From assembly GCF_006716235.1 (NCBI RefSeq), contig NZ_VFOR01000001.1, positions 496,001-560,000 on the forward strand: a stretch of DNA of 64,000 nt, read 5' to 3'. Source of the DNA: Propioniferax innocua (GTDB taxonomy: Bacteria > Actinomycetota > Actinomycetes > Propionibacteriales > Propionibacteriaceae). Shown here piece after piece: positions 35,687 through 42,494 of the stretch. The notes beneath the pieces were generated by a model that was not told the DNA's origin, searched no databases, and saw only the letters and a list, made by a program, of their open reading frames with translations. Positions within the stretch are counted from its first letter, which is position 1. Each line of letters opens with the position of its first letter. Both the position numbers and the translations under genes were made by a program.

Positions 35687-36403
35687 TCACGTGTAGTCGC
35701 GGGCGCCGAAGATCGCCGTGCCGACGCGGACCGTGGTGGCGCCGTGGGCGATGGCGAGTTCGAAATCCCCTGACATCCCCATCGACAGATCATCGACGCA
35801 GCCGGTGACCGTGTCATCGTCGCGGAGCCGCTGCTGCACATCGACGAGGCGGTCGAAACATGCGGCCACCTCGCTCTGGTCCTGGGCGCGGTCCCCCGCG
35901 ATCGCCACGGTCATCAGACCGGTCAGGCGCAGCCGGTCGAAGGCCGCCAGTTCACGGGCCAGCGTCAGTGCCGCGTCGGGTTCGACGCCGAACTTCTGTT
36001 CCTCACCGGAGGTGTTGACCTGGATCATCACATCGAGCGTGCGGTCCTCGGTGTCGAGCCGTTTCTGGAGCTCCCGGGCCAGTGCGACAGAATCCAGTGT
36101 CTGGAGTTCATCGGCGAAACGTGCCACGAACTTGGCCTTGTTGCGTTGCAGGTGTCCCACGATGCTCCATCGGGCGTCGAGGCCCTGCTCAACGCACTCG
36201 GTGGCCTTCGCCTCGGCCTCCTGCACCTTGTTCTCGGCGAGCATCAGGCCGGGCTCATGCCTCAGGAGTCCGGAGATGTGATCCACCGGCCACGTCTTCG
36301 CCACCGGCAGCAGTCGCACGGATCCCGGTTCGCGTCCGGCCTTCCTCGACGCCTCGGCGACCCGTTCGGTCACCTCTTCGTAGCGTTTCACCACGCCGTC
36401 CAT
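35687..36403 (-). CDS. YggS-family pyridoxal phosphate-binding protein
   Basis: A 238-residue homologue of YggS/PLPBP, which binds pyridoxal 5'-phosphate and balances its free pool. The PLP lysine is Lys36 in LLPVAKTWP, followed by GENK-like LAENKVQEAEAK, HLQRNKAKF and the phosphate-binding SMGMSGDFELAI. The ATG at 36403 is chosen because AAGGAG lies seven bases upstream; upstream in-frame codons at 36418 and 36445 are less likely. It is downstream of the VWA operon on the same strand, 72 bp after it. Confidence 0.92.
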   Translation of the reverse strand: MDGVVKRYEEVTERVAEASRKAGREPGSVRLLPVAKTWPVDHISGLLRHEPGLMLAENKVQEAEAKATECVEQGLDARWSIVGHLQRNKAKFVARFADELQTLDSVALARELQKRLDTEDRTLDVMIQVNTSGEEQKFGVEPDAALTLARELAAFDRLRLTGLMTVAIAGDRAQDQSEVAACFDRLVDVQQRLRDDDTVTGCVDDLSMGMSGDFELAIAHGATTVRVGTAIFGARDYT

Positions 36404-36475
36404 CGCATGCTCCTTCATCAACGACACGACCTGCCTTCCCGACACGACCGTGGCACCAGATGCCTTCGCTTCGGG

Positions 36476-37423
36476 TCAGGGCCAGCGCGCGGCCAGCGAC
36501 ACCATTCCGAGTGATGCGAGGATCGCGAAGGTGAGCCCGAAACCGACGTACCGCGCGGTCACCTCACGGTACTCCTTGGCGACGCCGGCGCTGCGGGCGA
36601 TCTCACTGAACGCCTGCGTCAACTGCTCGGCCGATTCCGCCACGAAAGCCTGTCCGCCACCGGCGTTCGCGATCTCGCGGAGCTGCTCGGGGTTGACCGG
36701 CACCGGGATCGTCTGGCCGGTGTCGGGGTCGCGCATCGTTCCGGAGGTCGTGCCGTAGGCGATGGTGTGCACCGGCACGTGTTGTTCCTTCGCGTCGGCC
36801 GCGGCGGTGAACGGGTCCCGCCCGAAGCGGCTCTCACCGTCGCTCATCACCACGATGGTGGCCGGCACCGGCCGATCGGGGTGGTCGGGGTCCGGCGGCA
36901 CCTGGGCGAGGGAATCAAGGCCCTCGTAGATGCCTTCACCGATCGCCGTGCTGGGACGCAGACGCAGACTGTCCACGGCGTTCCGGGCTTCCTGATGGTC
37001 GTTCGAGGGGCCGGAGACCAACGACGCCTGACGGGCGAAGTCGACGATCGCAATGTTGAAGCCATCGGGCATCTCGTCGATGAAGCCGTTGGCGGCATCC
37101 TTGGCCGCCGTGAGTCGGTCGGGCGCCACGTCGGTGGCCTCCATCGAATACGAGACGTCGAAGCACAGCACAACGGTTGCTCGTTCCACAGGCACTTCCA
37201 CCTCGGCCTGGGGGCGGGCCCAGGCCGCCAGCATCGACGCCAGGCTCAGCACCGAGAGCAGGACCACCACGTGCTTGACCCAACCGCGTTGACGGTCGAG
37301 CATCTGCTGCAGATCCTTCTCGGAGTGGTCGTTGCGCCATGCCAGCAAGATCACGTAGAGGAAACCCAGGGCCGGCACGAGCAGCAGCCACCACAGCCGC
37401 TCGGGATTGGCGAATTCAATCAC
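36476..37423 (-). CDS. VWA-domain membrane protein (BatA-like)
   Basis: A 315-residue protein: membrane segments near residues 12-30 and 50-68, a von Willebrand A domain (about 82-275) with the metal site DVSYS (Asp89, Ser91, Ser93) and downstream Thr/Asp (SDGES), and a C-terminal membrane segment. The topology is that of BatA/BatB, whose partners are MoxR ATPases. The GTG at 37423 is set by AGGAAGG five bases upstream. It is last in a MoxR-DUF58-VWA-VWA operon. The cysteine beside the metal site (LCFDVS) is a difference from its sister protein. Confidence 0.9.
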   Translation of the reverse strand: MIEFANPERLWWLLLVPALGFLYVILLAWRNDHSEKDLQQMLDRQRGWVKHVVVLLSVLSLASMLAAWARPQAEVEVPVERATVVLCFDVSYSMEATDVAPDRLTAAKDAANGFIDEMPDGFNIAIVDFARQASLVSGPSNDHQEARNAVDSLRLRPSTAIGEGIYEGLDSLAQVPPDPDHPDRPVPATIVVMSDGESRFGRDPFTAAADAKEQHVPVHTIAYGTTSGTMRDPDTGQTIPVPVNPEQLREIANAGGGQAFVAESAEQLTQAFSEIARSAGVAKEYREVTARYVGFGLTFAILASLGMVSLAARWP

Positions 37424-37469
37424 GATGGCCTTCCTCTCCCATGTCACTTCCGAATCGGGGAACTTCGCG

Positions 37470-37525: not shown

Positions 37526-38494
37526 TCATGGCCATCGCACCGCCAATGAGATAGCGGCCAACGCAGCGAGGACGGCGAACCCGAACCCCCATCCGACGTA
37601 CTGCGCGGTCACCTCCACTTCCTCGGTCCGGTGCCCCACTTCGGAACCGATCTCGTCGAACACCGCATCCAGTTGCTTGGCGTCGGCGGCCTCATAGGAT
37701 TTTCCCTCGGTGGTCTGCGCCACCTGCTCCAGTTCCTCCTTGTTGACCGCCACCTGATGGCGTTCCCCGTCGAGATCGACGAATCCGGTCTGGGTCCCAT
37801 AGGCGATGGTGTGCACCGGGACCCCCGCCTCCTTGGCGAGATCGGCCCCCTGCAGGGCAGGGCGTCCGCTGTTGGACTCCCCATCGCTGAGCAGAACGAT
37901 CGCGCCGGGAGCGATGTCCTCGGATTGCTCCCCATCGCCACCCGGTACTCGTCGCAGCGCGTCCAGGCCCAACGCGATCGCCTCTCCCACGGCGGTGCCG
38001 TCCTTGAGCTTCAGGGCGTCGATGACGCGGGTCGCTGCTGCTCGGTCGGTGTCCGCGGAGAACCGGATGCCGGAATTTCCGGCCATCTCCACCACGGCCA
38101 CGTTCATGTTCGGGGGCATGGATTCCACGAAGTCAGTGGCGGCGGTCTTCGCCGCGTCCAACCGGTTCGGTTCGACGTCGGTGGCCCCCATCGATTGGGA
38201 GGTGTCGATGACCACCACGACGGTGGCTCGCTCCACCGGGACCCTGGCCTCGGCCGATGGTTTCGCGAAGGCGATGGTCAGGGCCGCCAGCGACAACATC
38301 GAGAGGGCGACGGCGAGGTGGCGTCGCCACTGCTTCTGCGGACGCATGACCGCCGCGAGCATCGAGGTGTTCGTGAACCGCATGCCCCGACGCCCTCGCC
38401 GCCGCATCGCAATGATGTACAGCGTCACGAGCAGGGGGATGACCAGCAGCCACAGCAACCGGCCCGGGAGCTCGAATGTCGGGAACCAACCCAT
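37526..38494 (-). CDS. VWA-domain membrane protein (BatA-like), first copy
   Basis: A 322-residue protein with two N-terminal membrane segments (residues about 12-30, 60-78), a VWA domain with metal site DTSQS (Asp97, Ser99, Ser101) and a C-terminal membrane segment. It is a paralogue of the following gene product: both share the RVPVERATVV/EVPVERATVV lead and the YVGxGxxFA...RWP ending. The ATG at 38494 overlaps the DUF58 stop by 1 base (TGATG). Paired VWA proteins probably form a membrane complex with MoxR and DUF58. Confidence 0.9.
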   Translation of the reverse strand: MGWFPTFELPGRLLWLLVIPLLVTLYIIAMRRRGRRGMRFTNTSMLAAVMRPQKQWRRHLAVALSMLSLAALTIAFAKPSAEARVPVERATVVVVIDTSQSMGATDVEPNRLDAAKTAATDFVESMPPNMNVAVVEMAGNSGIRFSADTDRAAATRVIDALKLKDGTAVGEAIALGLDALRRVPGGDGEQSEDIAPGAIVLLSDGESNSGRPALQGADLAKEAGVPVHTIAYGTQTGFVDLDGERHQVAVNKEELEQVAQTTEGKSYEAADAKQLDAVFDEIGSEVGHRTEEVEVTAQYVGWGFGFAVLAALAAISLAVRWP

Positions 38495-39528
38495 CAACGG
38501 CTCACTCCTCGGGGCGGGGCATGCAGGGTGCTGGCAACCCGGCGGTAGGTGAGCACGAATCGCGCGATGTCATGCACCCAGTCTCTGTCAGTGCGCAACT
38601 GGATGTGGCCGACGCCGGCCCGCCGCAATGCGATCCGGATCCGTTCACGCTGCGCGGCCGAGGCCTGGTTCATCCGACGCCGGGCCGCGGGATCGGAGGT
38701 GTTCACGTACTGCTCGAAGTCTGTCTCCGGGTCGCGGATGAGGATCTCCCCCACGTTGGGGAACTCGAGTTCGCGTCGGTCCACGACCTCCACGGCCAGA
38801 ACCTGGTTGCGGACCGTGAGCCGTCGGAGGGCGCGTTCCCACGGGGGTTCCACATTGGGGTCGAGTTCCTGGTCGCCGGGTGTCAGGAAGTCCGAGACGA
38901 CCACGCGCATCCCGCGTCGACGCTGTGTTCGGGCGAGTTGTTCGATGCCCTCGGGAAGGTCGATCGTTCCCTTCGCATGATCGGGGACCATCGGCTCGTT
39001 CAGCATGGAGCGCAACAGCCCGTAGAGGGCGTTGCGTCCGGAGCGGGCCGGGAGGCGCTGCACCTTCTCGGGCCGCATGATCATGCCACCGAAGCGGTCG
39101 CCCATCTTCTGGCTGAGGAAGCCGATCGTCGCGATGGCGGCGATGCCCAGGTCTCGTTTGGTGACGCCCTCGGTGCCCCAGTTCATCGACGGGGTCACAT
39201 CGAGCATGGCCCACACCTCCAACTCGCGGTCGGAGACAGTGTCACGCACGTGCGGCACGGTGGTGCGGGCGGTGACGGCCCAGTCCATCATCCGCACGTC
39301 GTCCTGGCCCGGCTGATAGGTGCGGGCGTCATTGGTGTCGCTGCCCGGCCCGGGAAGCAGCCCCAGATGGTCACCTTGGAGGAACCCCTCCAGTCGACGC
39401 ACCACGGCGAGCTCGAGTCGGCGCAGCGCCGCTTCGGGTGCCAATCGGTTCAACGGCACCGTGGGCGCGGTCGGGACGCCCACCACCGACGCGAGGGCTG
39501 CGGGCGTCTCGGATTCGGGACGGCTCAT
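38494..39528 (-). CDS. DUF58-domain protein of the MoxR operon
   Basis: A 344-residue protein. The DUF58 signature is ARTYQPGQDDVRMMDWAVTART, and a degenerate VWA-like fold follows with LDVTPSMNWGTE in the metal-site position. The family is soluble and always encoded with MoxR and VWA proteins. It starts 13 bp after the MoxR stop and overlaps the next gene, so it is the second gene of the operon. Function is inferred from context: bridging MoxR to VWA proteins. Confidence 0.9.
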   Translation of the reverse strand: MSRPESETPAALASVVGVPTAPTVPLNRLAPEAALRRLELAVVRRLEGFLQGDHLGLLPGPGSDTNDARTYQPGQDDVRMMDWAVTARTTVPHVRDTVSDRELEVWAMLDVTPSMNWGTEGVTKRDLGIAAIATIGFLSQKMGDRFGGMIMRPEKVQRLPARSGRNALYGLLRSMLNEPMVPDHAKGTIDLPEGIEQLARTQRRRGMRVVVSDFLTPGDQELDPNVEPPWERALRRLTVRNQVLAVEVVDRRELEFPNVGEILIRDPETDFEQYVNTSDPAARRRMNQASAAQRERIRIALRRAGVGHIQLRTDRDWVHDIARFVLTYRRVASTLHAPPRGVSR

Positions 39529-39541
39529 GCACGACCCCCGA

Positions 39542-40729
39542 TCAGTTCGGTCGGTACTGCTGCGGGTTCTGCCCGGGCGGCGGGAACTGTGCGAGCTGCT
39601 CCGGCGTCGGCTGCTGCCCCTGCGGCGGATAACCCTGCTGCGGATAGCCCCCCTGCTGCGGATAACTCTGCTGCGGATAGGGCTGCTGCGGGGCCGACGG
39701 CTGGTGCTGCGGCTGTTGCTGACCCTGATCCCACACCGGCGTCGGCGCCGGAACCATGGCGACCACGCGCTCGATCACCTGCGTGGGATCGATGTTGTCG
39801 GCCACGGCGTCGAAACCGAGCACGAGACGGTGCGCCATGACGTCCTTGGCCACGGCCTGGACATCGGTGGGCAGCACGTAGTCACGTCCGTGGATCAGAG
39901 CGAGGGCGCGCGAGGCGTTGACCAGGCCGAGCGTCGCACGCGGCGAGCAGCCGATCTGAATGACCGGGTCGAGGTCGGGCATGTTGAACTCGGCGGGGGT
40001 TCGCGTCGCCAACACCAGCCGCACGATGTATTCGGCGACGTGCTTGTGCACGAACACGTCGGTGGCCATGCCCTGGAGCTGCTTGACCAAGTCGGGGTTC
40101 AGCACCGGTTGGGGCTCGGGGGTCCGCTGGCTCATGCGGCGCAGGATCTCGAATTCCTCGTCACCGGCCGGATACGGCACGTCGACCTTCAGGAGGAAGC
40201 GGTCGCGCTGGGCCTCCGGAAGCGGGTAGACGCCCTCGGACTCCACGGGGTTCTGCGTCGCGATCACGATGAAGGGATCTGGCGCCGGGTAGGTCTGGCC
40301 ACCGAGCGAGACCTGCTTCTCGGCCATCAGCTCCAGCATCGCCGACTGCACCTTGGCCGGGGCCCGGTTGATCTCGTCAGCGAGCACGAAGTTCACAAAG
40401 ACCGGGCCGAGTTCGATCTCGAACCTCTCCTGGTTCGCGGAGTAGATACGCGTACCGACGATGTCGGAGGGCACGAGGTCGGGGGTGAACTGGACGCGGG
40501 AGAAGTCGCCGCCCACGACGGTGGCGAAGCTCCGCACCGCGAGCGTCTTGGCGACGCCGGGAACGCCTTCGAGCAGACAGTGTCCCCTGGCCAACAGCGA
40601 CACCATGAGCTGCTCGACCATGTGCTCCTGACCGACGATCACTCGCTGCACCTGTTCGATGGACGTGCGCAGCAGGTCGGACGCCTGCTCCGGTGTCATC
40701 TGTGCGCCCATCTCGGGGGACTCCGTCAC
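39542..40729 (-). CDS. MoxR-family AAA+ ATPase with Gln/Pro-rich tail
   Basis: A 395-residue AAA+ ATPase, a chaperone-like enzyme that acts with VWA proteins. Walker A is GVPGVAKT (55-62) and Walker B VLADEINRAP; sensor regions ATQNPVESEGVYPLPEAQRDRF are typical of MoxR. The C-terminal 55 residues are a Gln/Pro/Tyr/Gly tail of PYPQQ/GYPQQ repeats, not part of the usual fold. The GTG at 40729 has AGGAGG four to five bases upstream. It is first in the operon and divergent from a membrane protein gene. Confidence 0.93.
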   Translation of the reverse strand: MTESPEMGAQMTPEQASDLLRTSIEQVQRVIVGQEHMVEQLMVSLLARGHCLLEGVPGVAKTLAVRSFATVVGGDFSRVQFTPDLVPSDIVGTRIYSANQERFEIELGPVFVNFVLADEINRAPAKVQSAMLELMAEKQVSLGGQTYPAPDPFIVIATQNPVESEGVYPLPEAQRDRFLLKVDVPYPAGDEEFEILRRMSQRTPEPQPVLNPDLVKQLQGMATDVFVHKHVAEYIVRLVLATRTPAEFNMPDLDPVIQIGCSPRATLGLVNASRALALIHGRDYVLPTDVQAVAKDVMAHRLVLGFDAVADNIDPTQVIERVVAMVPAPTPVWDQGQQQPQHQPSAPQQPYPQQSYPQQGGYPQQGYPPQGQQPTPEQLAQFPPPGQNPQQYRPN

Positions 40730-40852
40730 GCCGCCTCCTGCTGGATTCGTCCTGATTCGTGGATCGTTCGGCACGTTGCCGTGGGAACCTTACCCAACGT
40801 GGTGGCGCGAACACACACGATCGTCGGCGCGGCGGTGGCACAATGGCGCTCG

Positions 40853-41656
40853 ATGCCCGAAGTGAACCTCGCCCCGCTGCTGCCGTCCGACCCGCCACAC
40901 ATCGATGAGTTCTGGCTCGACGCACGCCTGCACGCCAGCCCGTCGGGTGTGGTGTACATCGCCCATGGTCGGGATACCCGCGTCCGGCTCATTCTGCTCA
41001 GCGACGGCGCTGCCAACGACAAAGCCGCCCGCGACCGGTTCTCAGGGCTCATCAATGGCCTGCACATCGACGAGGTCGTGGCCCGTGGCGGGCACGATCA
41101 GGATCAGGGACGTCTGGGGCGACGTTTCCGGGCCCCCAAGGACTCCCCTCTCCCGGCCGATTCCCAGGAACTCGCGCCGTGGGTCGCGATGCCGTGGACG
41201 CGGGACCCACAGGAGGTCGAGCAGGTGCGCGAGATCCTGCAGGGCGTCGAGTTGGAGGATGTCGTTCAGCCCGATGCCGAGGGCCCCGACTACGAGCACT
41301 ACTGGTTGAAGAACACCAAGGCGGGCCGGACGCGGACCTTTCCCCTGCCGTGGCCCGGTCGATCCGACCGCGCGGGGTGGCTCAGCATCCTGACGTCGTG
41401 GCTGCTGATGTTGCTGTTCGCGGTGCTCGCCCTGCTCATCGCCTATCTGTTGTTCCGCGAATCCGATCCGGTTCCCGAGCCGTCCCCGGTACCTCAAAGT
41501 GGCGAGCCGACCCCATCGTCGACAGCCAGCCCCTCGGACACCGCCTCCCCGAGCGAAAGTCCCGAACCCAGCGAATCCCAGAGCCCGTCGGATTCGGCCA
41601 GCCCGACCCCGTCCGACACGGCCGAGGGAACGCCGACGCCGCCGTCCCGTCTGTGA
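40853..41656 (+). CDS. Membrane protein with possible degenerate kinase N-lobe and Ser/Pro tail
   Basis: A 267-residue protein. Residues 14-60 (HIDEFWLDARLHASPSGVVY and the following strand) resemble the glycine-loop region of Hanks-type Ser/Thr kinases, but the glycines are lost and the position of the VAIK lysine is Leu (VRLILLSDG), so it would be a pseudokinase fragment. A single membrane segment lies at about 185-207, followed by a roughly 55-residue Ser/Pro/Glu tail. The start ATG lacks a ribosome site; CACAAT seven bases upstream may be a -10 box of a leaderless message. It is divergent from the MoxR operon and 13 bp before a HAD gene. Confidence 0.65.
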   Translation: MPEVNLAPLLPSDPPHIDEFWLDARLHASPSGVVYIAHGRDTRVRLILLSDGAANDKAARDRFSGLINGLHIDEVVARGGHDQDQGRLGRRFRAPKDSPLPADSQELAPWVAMPWTRDPQEVEQVREILQGVELEDVVQPDAEGPDYEHYWLKNTKAGRTRTFPLPWPGRSDRAGWLSILTSWLLMLLFAVLALLIAYLLFRESDPVPEPSPVPQSGEPTPSSTASPSDTASPSESPEPSESQSPSDSASPTPSDTAEGTPTPPSRL

Positions 41657-41669
41657 TTGACTCACCTGC

Positions 41670-42494
41670 ATGACTCTCCGGCCACGTCTGATCGTCAGCG
41701 ATCTCGATGGCACCTTCCTCGACCCGATGGGGCAGGTGACCGCCATCAATCGTGACGCGGTCGTCGATGCGGTCGACGCCGGCATCGGTGTGCTGCTGGC
41801 CACCGGGCGTCCTCCCCGTTGGCTCGGTGTCATCGAGGATCTCCCCGTCGGCCATCCGCTCGTGATCTCCAGCAACGGCGCCCTGTTGTGGGATCTTCAG
41901 GAGCGACGCCCCCTCATCAGTCACCCGGTCGACGCCGTGGTTGCCCAGGACGCCATGGCCGCGATCCGTGACGAGCTGCCCGAGGTCACCTTCGGCGTCG
42001 AGATCGGAATGCGTTTCGGGCACGAACCCGGCTGGGACTGGTTCGAGGAGGCACCGGTGGGTGACGCCTTCTTCACCGCCACCGGAACCGATCTCGTCGC
42101 AGAACCGTTCGTGAAGTTCCTCGTGCAGCACGTCGGCCTGCCCAGTGATCCCCTGGCAGCCACAGTGGAGCAGATCGTCGGTGATGCGCTCACCGTGACG
42201 CATTCGAATTTCCACTCCTCCATCGGCCTGCTGGAGGTCTCCGCCCCCGGCGTCAGCAAGGCGACTCTGCTTCAGGAGTGGTGTATCGACCAAGGCATCG
42301 ATGCTGCGGATGTGGCGGCGTTCGGTGACATGCCGAACGACCGCACCATGCTGGAGTGGGTCGGGCAGCCGCACATCATGGAGCAGTCACACCCCAGCCT
42401 GCATTCGGTGGTGGGATCCAGCGGGCGTCCGGCGGTGCGTATCGGTTCGAACGCCGCATCCGCGGTGGGGGCGAGGATCCGCGAGTGGCTGTGA
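41670..42494 (+). CDS. HAD-superfamily phosphatase, Cof type
   Basis: A 274-residue HAD hydrolase with a C2B-type cap. Motif I is VSDLDGTFLDP, motif II LLATGRPP, and motif IV FGDMPNDRTML, after the Lys in GVSKATLL. Cof enzymes remove phosphate from sugar phosphates or cofactors; the substrate here is unknown. The gene overlaps the following mannosyltransferase gene by 4 bp (GTGA), so it may act on a sugar phosphate in the same pathway. Confidence 0.9.
   Translation: MTLRPRLIVSDLDGTFLDPMGQVTAINRDAVVDAVDAGIGVLLATGRPPRWLGVIEDLPVGHPLVISSNGALLWDLQERRPLISHPVDAVVAQDAMAAIRDELPEVTFGVEIGMRFGHEPGWDWFEEAPVGDAFFTATGTDLVAEPFVKFLVQHVGLPSDPLAATVEQIVGDALTVTHSNFHSSIGLLEVSAPGVSKATLLQEWCIDQGIDAADVAAFGDMPNDRTMLEWVGQPHIMEQSHPSLHSVVGSSGRPAVRIGSNAASAVGARIREWL

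Follow-up and report, generated by a model that had tools for sequence, protein, structure and literature searches.

The gene at positions 40,853–41,656 (forward strand) of the window, a 64,000-nucleotide stretch of the Propioniferax innocua genome, was found to encode a 267-aa protein in which the N-lobe of a Ser/Thr kinase is followed by a juxtamembrane segment and one membrane helix, and this gene lay divergent from a MoxR–DUF58–VWA–VWA operon wherever the flank could be read. Taking all the evidence together, we favor, with some reserve, the reading that the product is a single-pass membrane pseudokinase, made of an N-lobe only, that would tether the MoxR–DUF58–VWA machine. MoxR matches are common in the class sample, yet the operons of this type are poorly understood, and a membrane protein that is strictly linked to them and has a recognizable fold offers a handle on the machine; what the DUF58 protein next to MoxR1 does is still described as unclear (PMC12067865). 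Furthermore, half a kinase retained as a conserved domain would widen the definition of a pseudokinase.

Layout of the gene and its locus

The open reading frame listed in the first-pass annotation proved to be a real gene, with an ATG start and with matches in 47 of 57 related genomes, the window's own included. These matches were distributed as 33/33 in the Propionibacteriaceae (f1, the family of the window, own genome counted), 7/8 in family f2, 0/8 in f3 and 7/8 in f4, where they were weak. The frame was open further upstream (778 aa). Since most homologues aligned from residues 1–8 of the 267-aa protein, the ATG at 40,853 was taken as the likely start.

The encoded protein comprised a kinase N-lobe (residues ~13–133, β1-β2-β3-αC-β4-β5-αD; 40,889–41,251), a conserved juxtamembrane segment (residues ~144–170; 41,282–41,362), a transmembrane helix (residues 173–204; 41,369–41,464) and a Ser/Pro-rich tail (41,465–41,653). 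The N-lobe was delimited by the AlphaFold model, the PDB matches and the profile matches to true kinases, and the juxtamembrane segment by the alignments, its AlphaFold confidence (pLDDT) being low. The helix was predicted by AlphaFold and carried a hydrophobic peak from residue 183. Both this helix and the Ser/Pro tail (~50% Ser+Pro) had been proposed in the earlier annotation and were borne out. Across 61 proteins the tail had a median length of 90 aa and 56% Ser+Pro, and in 57 of them the net charge before the helix was higher than after it. By the positive-inside rule and from the composition of the tail, the N-terminus is probably inside and the C-terminal tail probably extracytoplasmic. 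Receptor kinases such as PknB have the same order of a kinase part, one membrane helix and an outer C-terminus.

On the opposite strand, Pfam named the neighbors as the annotation had read them: a MoxR AAA+ ATPase (39,542–40,774; PF07726, E 3.2e-60) with a Walker-A-like GVPGVAKT, a DUF58 protein (38,494–39,528; PF01882, E 1.4e-59) and two VWA proteins (37,526–38,497 and 36,476–37,447), each with three hydrophobic peaks and a MIDAS-like DxSxS, at residue 98 in the first and 97 in the second. An open reading frame at 35,687–36,445 adjoined the second VWA gene on the same strand; by its sequence pattern it looks like the PLP-binding protein YggS. Directly downstream of the pseudokinase gene and on its strand, a gene for a Cof-type HAD phosphatase (41,670–42,494; Pfam and NCBIfam) started 13 bp after the stop. 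A HAD phosphatase match adjoined the pseudokinase at 24 of 30 loci, own included, and its membership in the MoxR system is uncertain.

The pseudokinase and MoxR genes shared an intergenic region (40,775–40,852), their starts being 78 bp apart provided that MoxR begins at the GTG at 40,774. This region contained a −10-like CACAAT (40,839–40,844) ~8 nt 5′ of the ATG. Upstream of many homologues (L031–L091), GGCACAATGG or TGTGGTGAGAT was recognized by eye as a −10-like element, and a script pattern for the TGTGGTGAGAT kind and its variants matched 21 of 61 upstream regions, the window not being among them. As the −10-like element stood only ~8 nt before the ATG, a leaderless transcript of the pseudokinase gene is suggested.

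Sequence and predicted fold of the N-lobe

Four alignments were used. A1 had 27 rows (the window and 26 of the 29 other loci from the related-genome search, these 26 being 44–57% identical to the window protein), A2 and A4 had 43 rows each (the window and 42 of the 63 named loci), and the broad alignment A3 had 30 rows (the window, nine f1 loci and 20 of 22 prepared distant stretches, families f2, f4 and f20 included). The first-pass annotation had placed the kinase-like pattern in the first 60 residues. An N-lobe pattern was present there, but its extent was longer, reaching the hinge and αD at residues ~13–133. The reported absence of the ATP lysine was confirmed: at the β3 site (position 47; I47 in the window), lysine was found in 0/27, 0/43 and 0/30 rows of A1, A2 and A3, so that every aligned row lacked this mark of a Hanks-type kinase (PF00069). 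The reported absence of the glycines was correct for the first two of the GxGxxG loop (positions 27 and 29), mostly lost across the alignments, but not for the third. G32 was retained in 26/27, 43/43 and 30/30 rows, respectively, and was all that was left of the PF00069 glycine-rich loop.

Position 66, which by hand alignment falls approximately at the site of the αC glutamate, was variable, and D56, R62, W110 and W151 were invariant in all rows of three alignments. After αD, the juxtamembrane segment carried the motif GP[D/E]Y..W, with G144, P145 and W151 present in 43/43 family rows and W151 in 30/30 rows of A3. This was accompanied by WPLPWPGR in the family of the window, the shorter WPLPWP being found in f1 and in the one aligned f2 row.

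The claim that no C-lobe follows also stood. The window protein had neither the HRD nor the DFG motif of the PF00069 C-lobe, and nothing resembling a C-lobe was seen beyond αD in the aligned sequences. The Pfam scan gave no match for the window protein at E ≤ 1 and no kinase match for ten distant relatives at E ≤ 10, whilst an HMM built from 10 true kinases matched the relatives at model positions 2–98 only. With the window protein, NCBIfam gave a single match, far below the cut-off and over the helix and tail, and PADLOC gave nothing. What remains is a kinase half from which the ATP lysine, the C-lobe and the greater part of the glycine loop are missing, and therefore, judged by its sequence, the 267-aa protein is not expected to be catalytically active as a kinase.

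A structure prediction compared with PknB-type N-lobes had been proposed as a check on the kinase assignment, and the predicted fold was indeed that of a kinase N-lobe, the nearest folds being mycobacterial PknI, PknB and PknA. AlphaFold was run on residues 1–207 with a 43-row alignment (pLDDT 82.3, pTM 0.69) and separately on residues 1–137 alone (pLDDT 87.9, pTM 0.84). The longer model had strands at 20–29, 32–38, 43–50, 77–79 and 110–114 and helices at 57–68, 119–133 and, the long one, 173–204, which gives the order β1-β2-β3-αC-β4-β5-αD. The top Foldseek rows were PknI of M. tuberculosis, with probability 1.0 and modest E-values (1.8e-3 and 3.6e-3, none ≤1e-3). VIA-align, which re-aligned only Foldseek's own list, placed the model on PknB (1o6y) with Z 10.0 and 9.7, at 2.1 Å over 86 residues. 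In each of the four outputs (two of Foldseek and two of VIA-align), the best 50 PDB rows were all kinases. AlphaFold may nevertheless be reproducing a well-known fold.

Evidence from sequence profiles pointed in the same direction. In the class sample, the A1 profile also matched long open reading frames at positions ~2–68 with E down to 1.8e-9; 16 of these lay in fetched loci, and the 10 run through Pfam were all PF00069 (E ≤ 4.3e-25). The A3 profile aligned from β1 through the hinge (positions ~4–117) with open reading frames of family f22, its kinase matches having E ~1e-15 to 1e-16 and the best 3.3e-16; nine such loci were fetched (eight f22, one f62), and the eight from f22 were all PF00069 in Pfam (E ≤ 3.6e-39). 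The reverse search, with the 10-kinase HMM against the f20 relatives, gave E 5.6e-11 to 1.1e-15. Reversed decoys searched with two profiles yielded 0/4058 matches at E ≤ 1.

Weaker and stray matches were recorded as well. A search with A3 at E ≤ 10 of the genome to which the window belongs found the gene itself (2.7e-72) and, weakly, two other places (4.1e-5 and 0.016), both Pkinase loci, and the narrower A1 at the same threshold found only the gene itself, as a single copy, and no kinase. Against PDB sequences, the best A3 match had only E 0.02 (PknA residues 11–66). One stray forward match of A1 (E 0.002) fell in the helix region of an unrelated open reading frame (L181), and single A1 matches at E 1e-4 to 1e-7 also occurred in families f3, f36, f41, f46, f48 and f49, the f41 match (L156) being a true kinase by Pfam. 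Overall, β1–β3, αC and β4–β5 were collinear with kinases and above chance, and there is hardly any doubt that this N-lobe and that of actinobacterial Hanks kinases go back to a common ancestor. The window protein has the fold and the collinear sequence in common with PknB, PknI and PknA, but not the ATP lysine, the C-lobe or, for the most part, the glycine loop.

Distribution and linkage to the MoxR operon

Within the sampled class, the gene turned up in four families (f1, f2, f4 and f20). At E ≤ 1e-12, A3 had matches in 94/147 genomes of the order (49 f1, 37 f2 and 8 f4); among the listed genomes one f1 and one f2 genome had no A3 match, and outside the listing a further 33 had none. The A1 count in the class sample was 124/394 at E ≤ 1e-3, true kinases counted in. 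At least 63 loci were named, all from Propionibacteriaceae genera or broader actinobacterial bins, and the open frames of the f20 relatives in the class sample were mostly of 243–347 aa. One f2 genome (G493) carried two copies of the locus on contigs C1 and C5 (L254 and L255), with the same scores and spacing, which reflects either a duplication or an assembly effect.

The pairing with MoxR was consistent in all of the locus sets, which overlap in species. In the related genomes, MoxR lay divergent next door at 30/30 loci, the window's own counted. A set of 20 distant relatives (18 found in the search of the class, one f2 and one f4), picked by profile match and ORF length with their neighbors unseen, had MoxR, DUF58 and VWA matches in 20/20 cases, and MoxR was divergent at 20/20 further loci (ten f2, seven f4 and three f1). 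Among the 63 named loci, MoxR was immediately divergent at 59 and divergent at L044 with ~2.9 kb between, which amounts to 60/60 readable loci, as L059, L092 and L093 start at a contig end, where the flank is unreadable, and stand outside the 60. These results supported the earlier proposal that the gene belongs with the MoxR operon. A conserved neighborhood across actinobacteria had been suggested as its test; the link to MoxR held at every readable locus, but the gene was confined to four families.

The operon was also followed in the opposite direction. MoxR of the window, which matched in 126 of the 148 genomes of the class sample, was used as a query in these genomes, and all 58 non-own matches listed at E ≤ 1.9e-99 were examined. 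The N-lobe gene was present at 10 of these 58 MoxR-clade loci, each of the ten listed f20 genomes contributing one, and absent at the other 48, of which 47 were readable and one (L184) had no readable upstream flank. Since most MoxR-clade loci of the sample lack the gene, the machine can work without the pseudokinase. Hence, the gene accompanies the MoxR operon wherever the flank is readable, and the converse is lineage-limited. Co-expression is not a given, because MoxR and the pseudokinase gene run in opposite directions. The pseudokinase is very probably part of the MoxR system. One f20 genome (G179) had three MoxR-clade operons (L183, L213 and L131), with the pseudokinase only at L131.

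Proposed role and alternative explanations

Kinase folds without catalytic activity can act as binding modules, EssB (PMC3694306) and MviN (PMC12599244) being membrane examples. Kinase folds beside MoxR have precedents in the bifidobacterial PFNA operon (PMC6803598) and, as inactive kinases, in VMAP systems (PMC7159879). The simplest reading is that of a tether or scaffold that docks by way of its N-lobe and juxtamembrane motif. The N-lobe would bind no ATP and transfer no phosphate; on the cytoplasmic side of the membrane, it would serve instead to bind other proteins. Jointly with the GP[D/E]Y..W / WPLPWPGR segment, it would dock a product of the operon, the likeliest candidates being a membrane VWA protein and the MoxR ring. 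The Ser/Pro tail would extend into the cell wall. In this way the pseudokinase would hold MoxR–DUF58 to the membrane-bound VWA proteins, and it could pass on to the ATPase a signal from the wall or from a kinase. We give about an even chance to a scaffold or tether being its working mode.

Several described systems resemble parts of this arrangement. EssB, a membrane pseudokinase thought to recognize partners (PMC3694306), and YukC, of type VII secretion, likewise have a cytoplasmic pseudokinase, a membrane helix and an outer domain; nevertheless, EssB retains both lobes, whereas the window protein has only one, and the system and the phylum are different. MviN (ActPs3) is described as actinobacterial, with degraded catalytic motifs and, in many cases, a membrane region that follows the kinase domain (PMC12599244), features that the window protein shares, but the deletions of ActPs3 lie within the kinase domain and do not remove the whole C-lobe, and its gene context is another one. 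In the VMAP MoxR–vWA systems, as described, mostly catalytically disrupted kinase domains occur beside the MoxR–vWA pair (PMC7159879). Those kinases are described as effector domains of ternary conflict systems, and no VMAP component was recognized at the window locus by the models used; Pfam on six proteins named only MoxR, DUF58, the two VWA proteins and HAD, and PADLOC on five found nothing, a coverage that had no models dedicated to a third component of the VMAP, iSTAND, FtsH or β-propeller kind.

The review of bacterial pseudokinases covers seven families, ActPs1-3, GLW, CP1, DYD and DLHK (PMC12599244). Going by their descriptions in the available text, a family of the N-lobe alone is not among them, and the window protein fits none of the seven because its C-lobe is absent, the presence of a C-lobe in all seven being partly inferred. 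A text search of the open-licence PMC literature, as far as its texts were available, found no description of a MoxR-linked N-lobe pseudokinase family. It is conceivable, and we put this forward tentatively, that these proteins form a new class of N-lobe-alone pseudokinases, a dedicated non-catalytic adaptor of membrane MoxR–DUF58–VWA systems in Propionibacteriaceae and three other actinobacterial families. The retained half of the kinase would then do no more than bind partners and tether them to the membrane, and it would join Hanks-kinase signaling or wall sensing to an AAA+ chaperone.

An alternative, which we regard as unlikely, is that the protein acts on active Ser/Thr kinases as a decoy or an allosteric partner, its N-lobe pairing back-to-back, as in PknB, with that of a true receptor kinase, switching the kinase on or off and so linking kinase signaling to MoxR. 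In its favor, the genome of the window has eight strong Pkinase matches. Against this, the β2–β3 loop was ~2 residues shorter than that of PknB in a hand alignment, with no evident counterpart of L33, a residue of the PknB dimer interface; PknB L33 and D76 mutants are named in titles of PDB entries. A conserved back-to-back dimer interface was considered and rejected, as the L33 counterpart is missing and the distant relatives do not keep the pattern. The residues placed by hand at the sites of PknB R10 and D76, D, E, G, A or P at position 19 (R10) and R in 42/43 rows at position 78 (D76), hint at a charge swap. Moreover, the kinase HMM picked up no complete kinase in the flanking sequence that was fetched for the 58 MoxR-clade loci. 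In favor of a kinase partner, the pseudokinase domain of MviN is described as dimerizing back-to-back like some canonical bacterial kinases (PMC12599244), and in the bifidobacterial PFNA operon (Pkb2-FN3-MoxR-DUF58-TGM), which similarly has a kinase beside MoxR–DUF58, MoxR is reported as a substrate of Pkb2 (PMC6803598, PMC12067865). Pkb2, however, is an active kinase, whereas only an N-lobe is left of the kinase in the window, and this N-lobe has no catalytic residues.

The tether reading has also to be weighed against an envelope sensor, in which the outer tail would sense the wall and the N-lobe would relay to the MoxR machine, as in a receptor kinase without an output domain. The probable N-in, C-out layout would suit this role, and so would three f4 relatives (L143, 7200–7787; L160; L161) in which a C-terminal domain with four shared cysteines lay beyond the helix; in the post-helix region of L143 and of one f2 relative, no Pfam family scored above the cut-off. 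In the family of the window, by contrast, the tail consists of low-complexity Ser/Pro sequence in which a folded sensor is not evident, and we consider this role quite improbable. There is a small chance that the pseudokinase is instead a substrate or cargo, inserted or remodeled by MoxR–VWA and not a part of the machine. Its strict neighborhood with the MoxR operon would be explained, and MoxR–vWA pairs are described as proposed remodelers of partner proteins (PMC7159879), but the gene was absent at most MoxR-clade loci of the class sample. Finally, a chance neighbor or a decaying kinase gene is scarcely credible: the loss of the C-lobe and of the catalytic residues would suit decay, but the intact frame, the same neighbor at every readable locus of four families and the four residues invariant in three alignments refute it as far as conservation goes.
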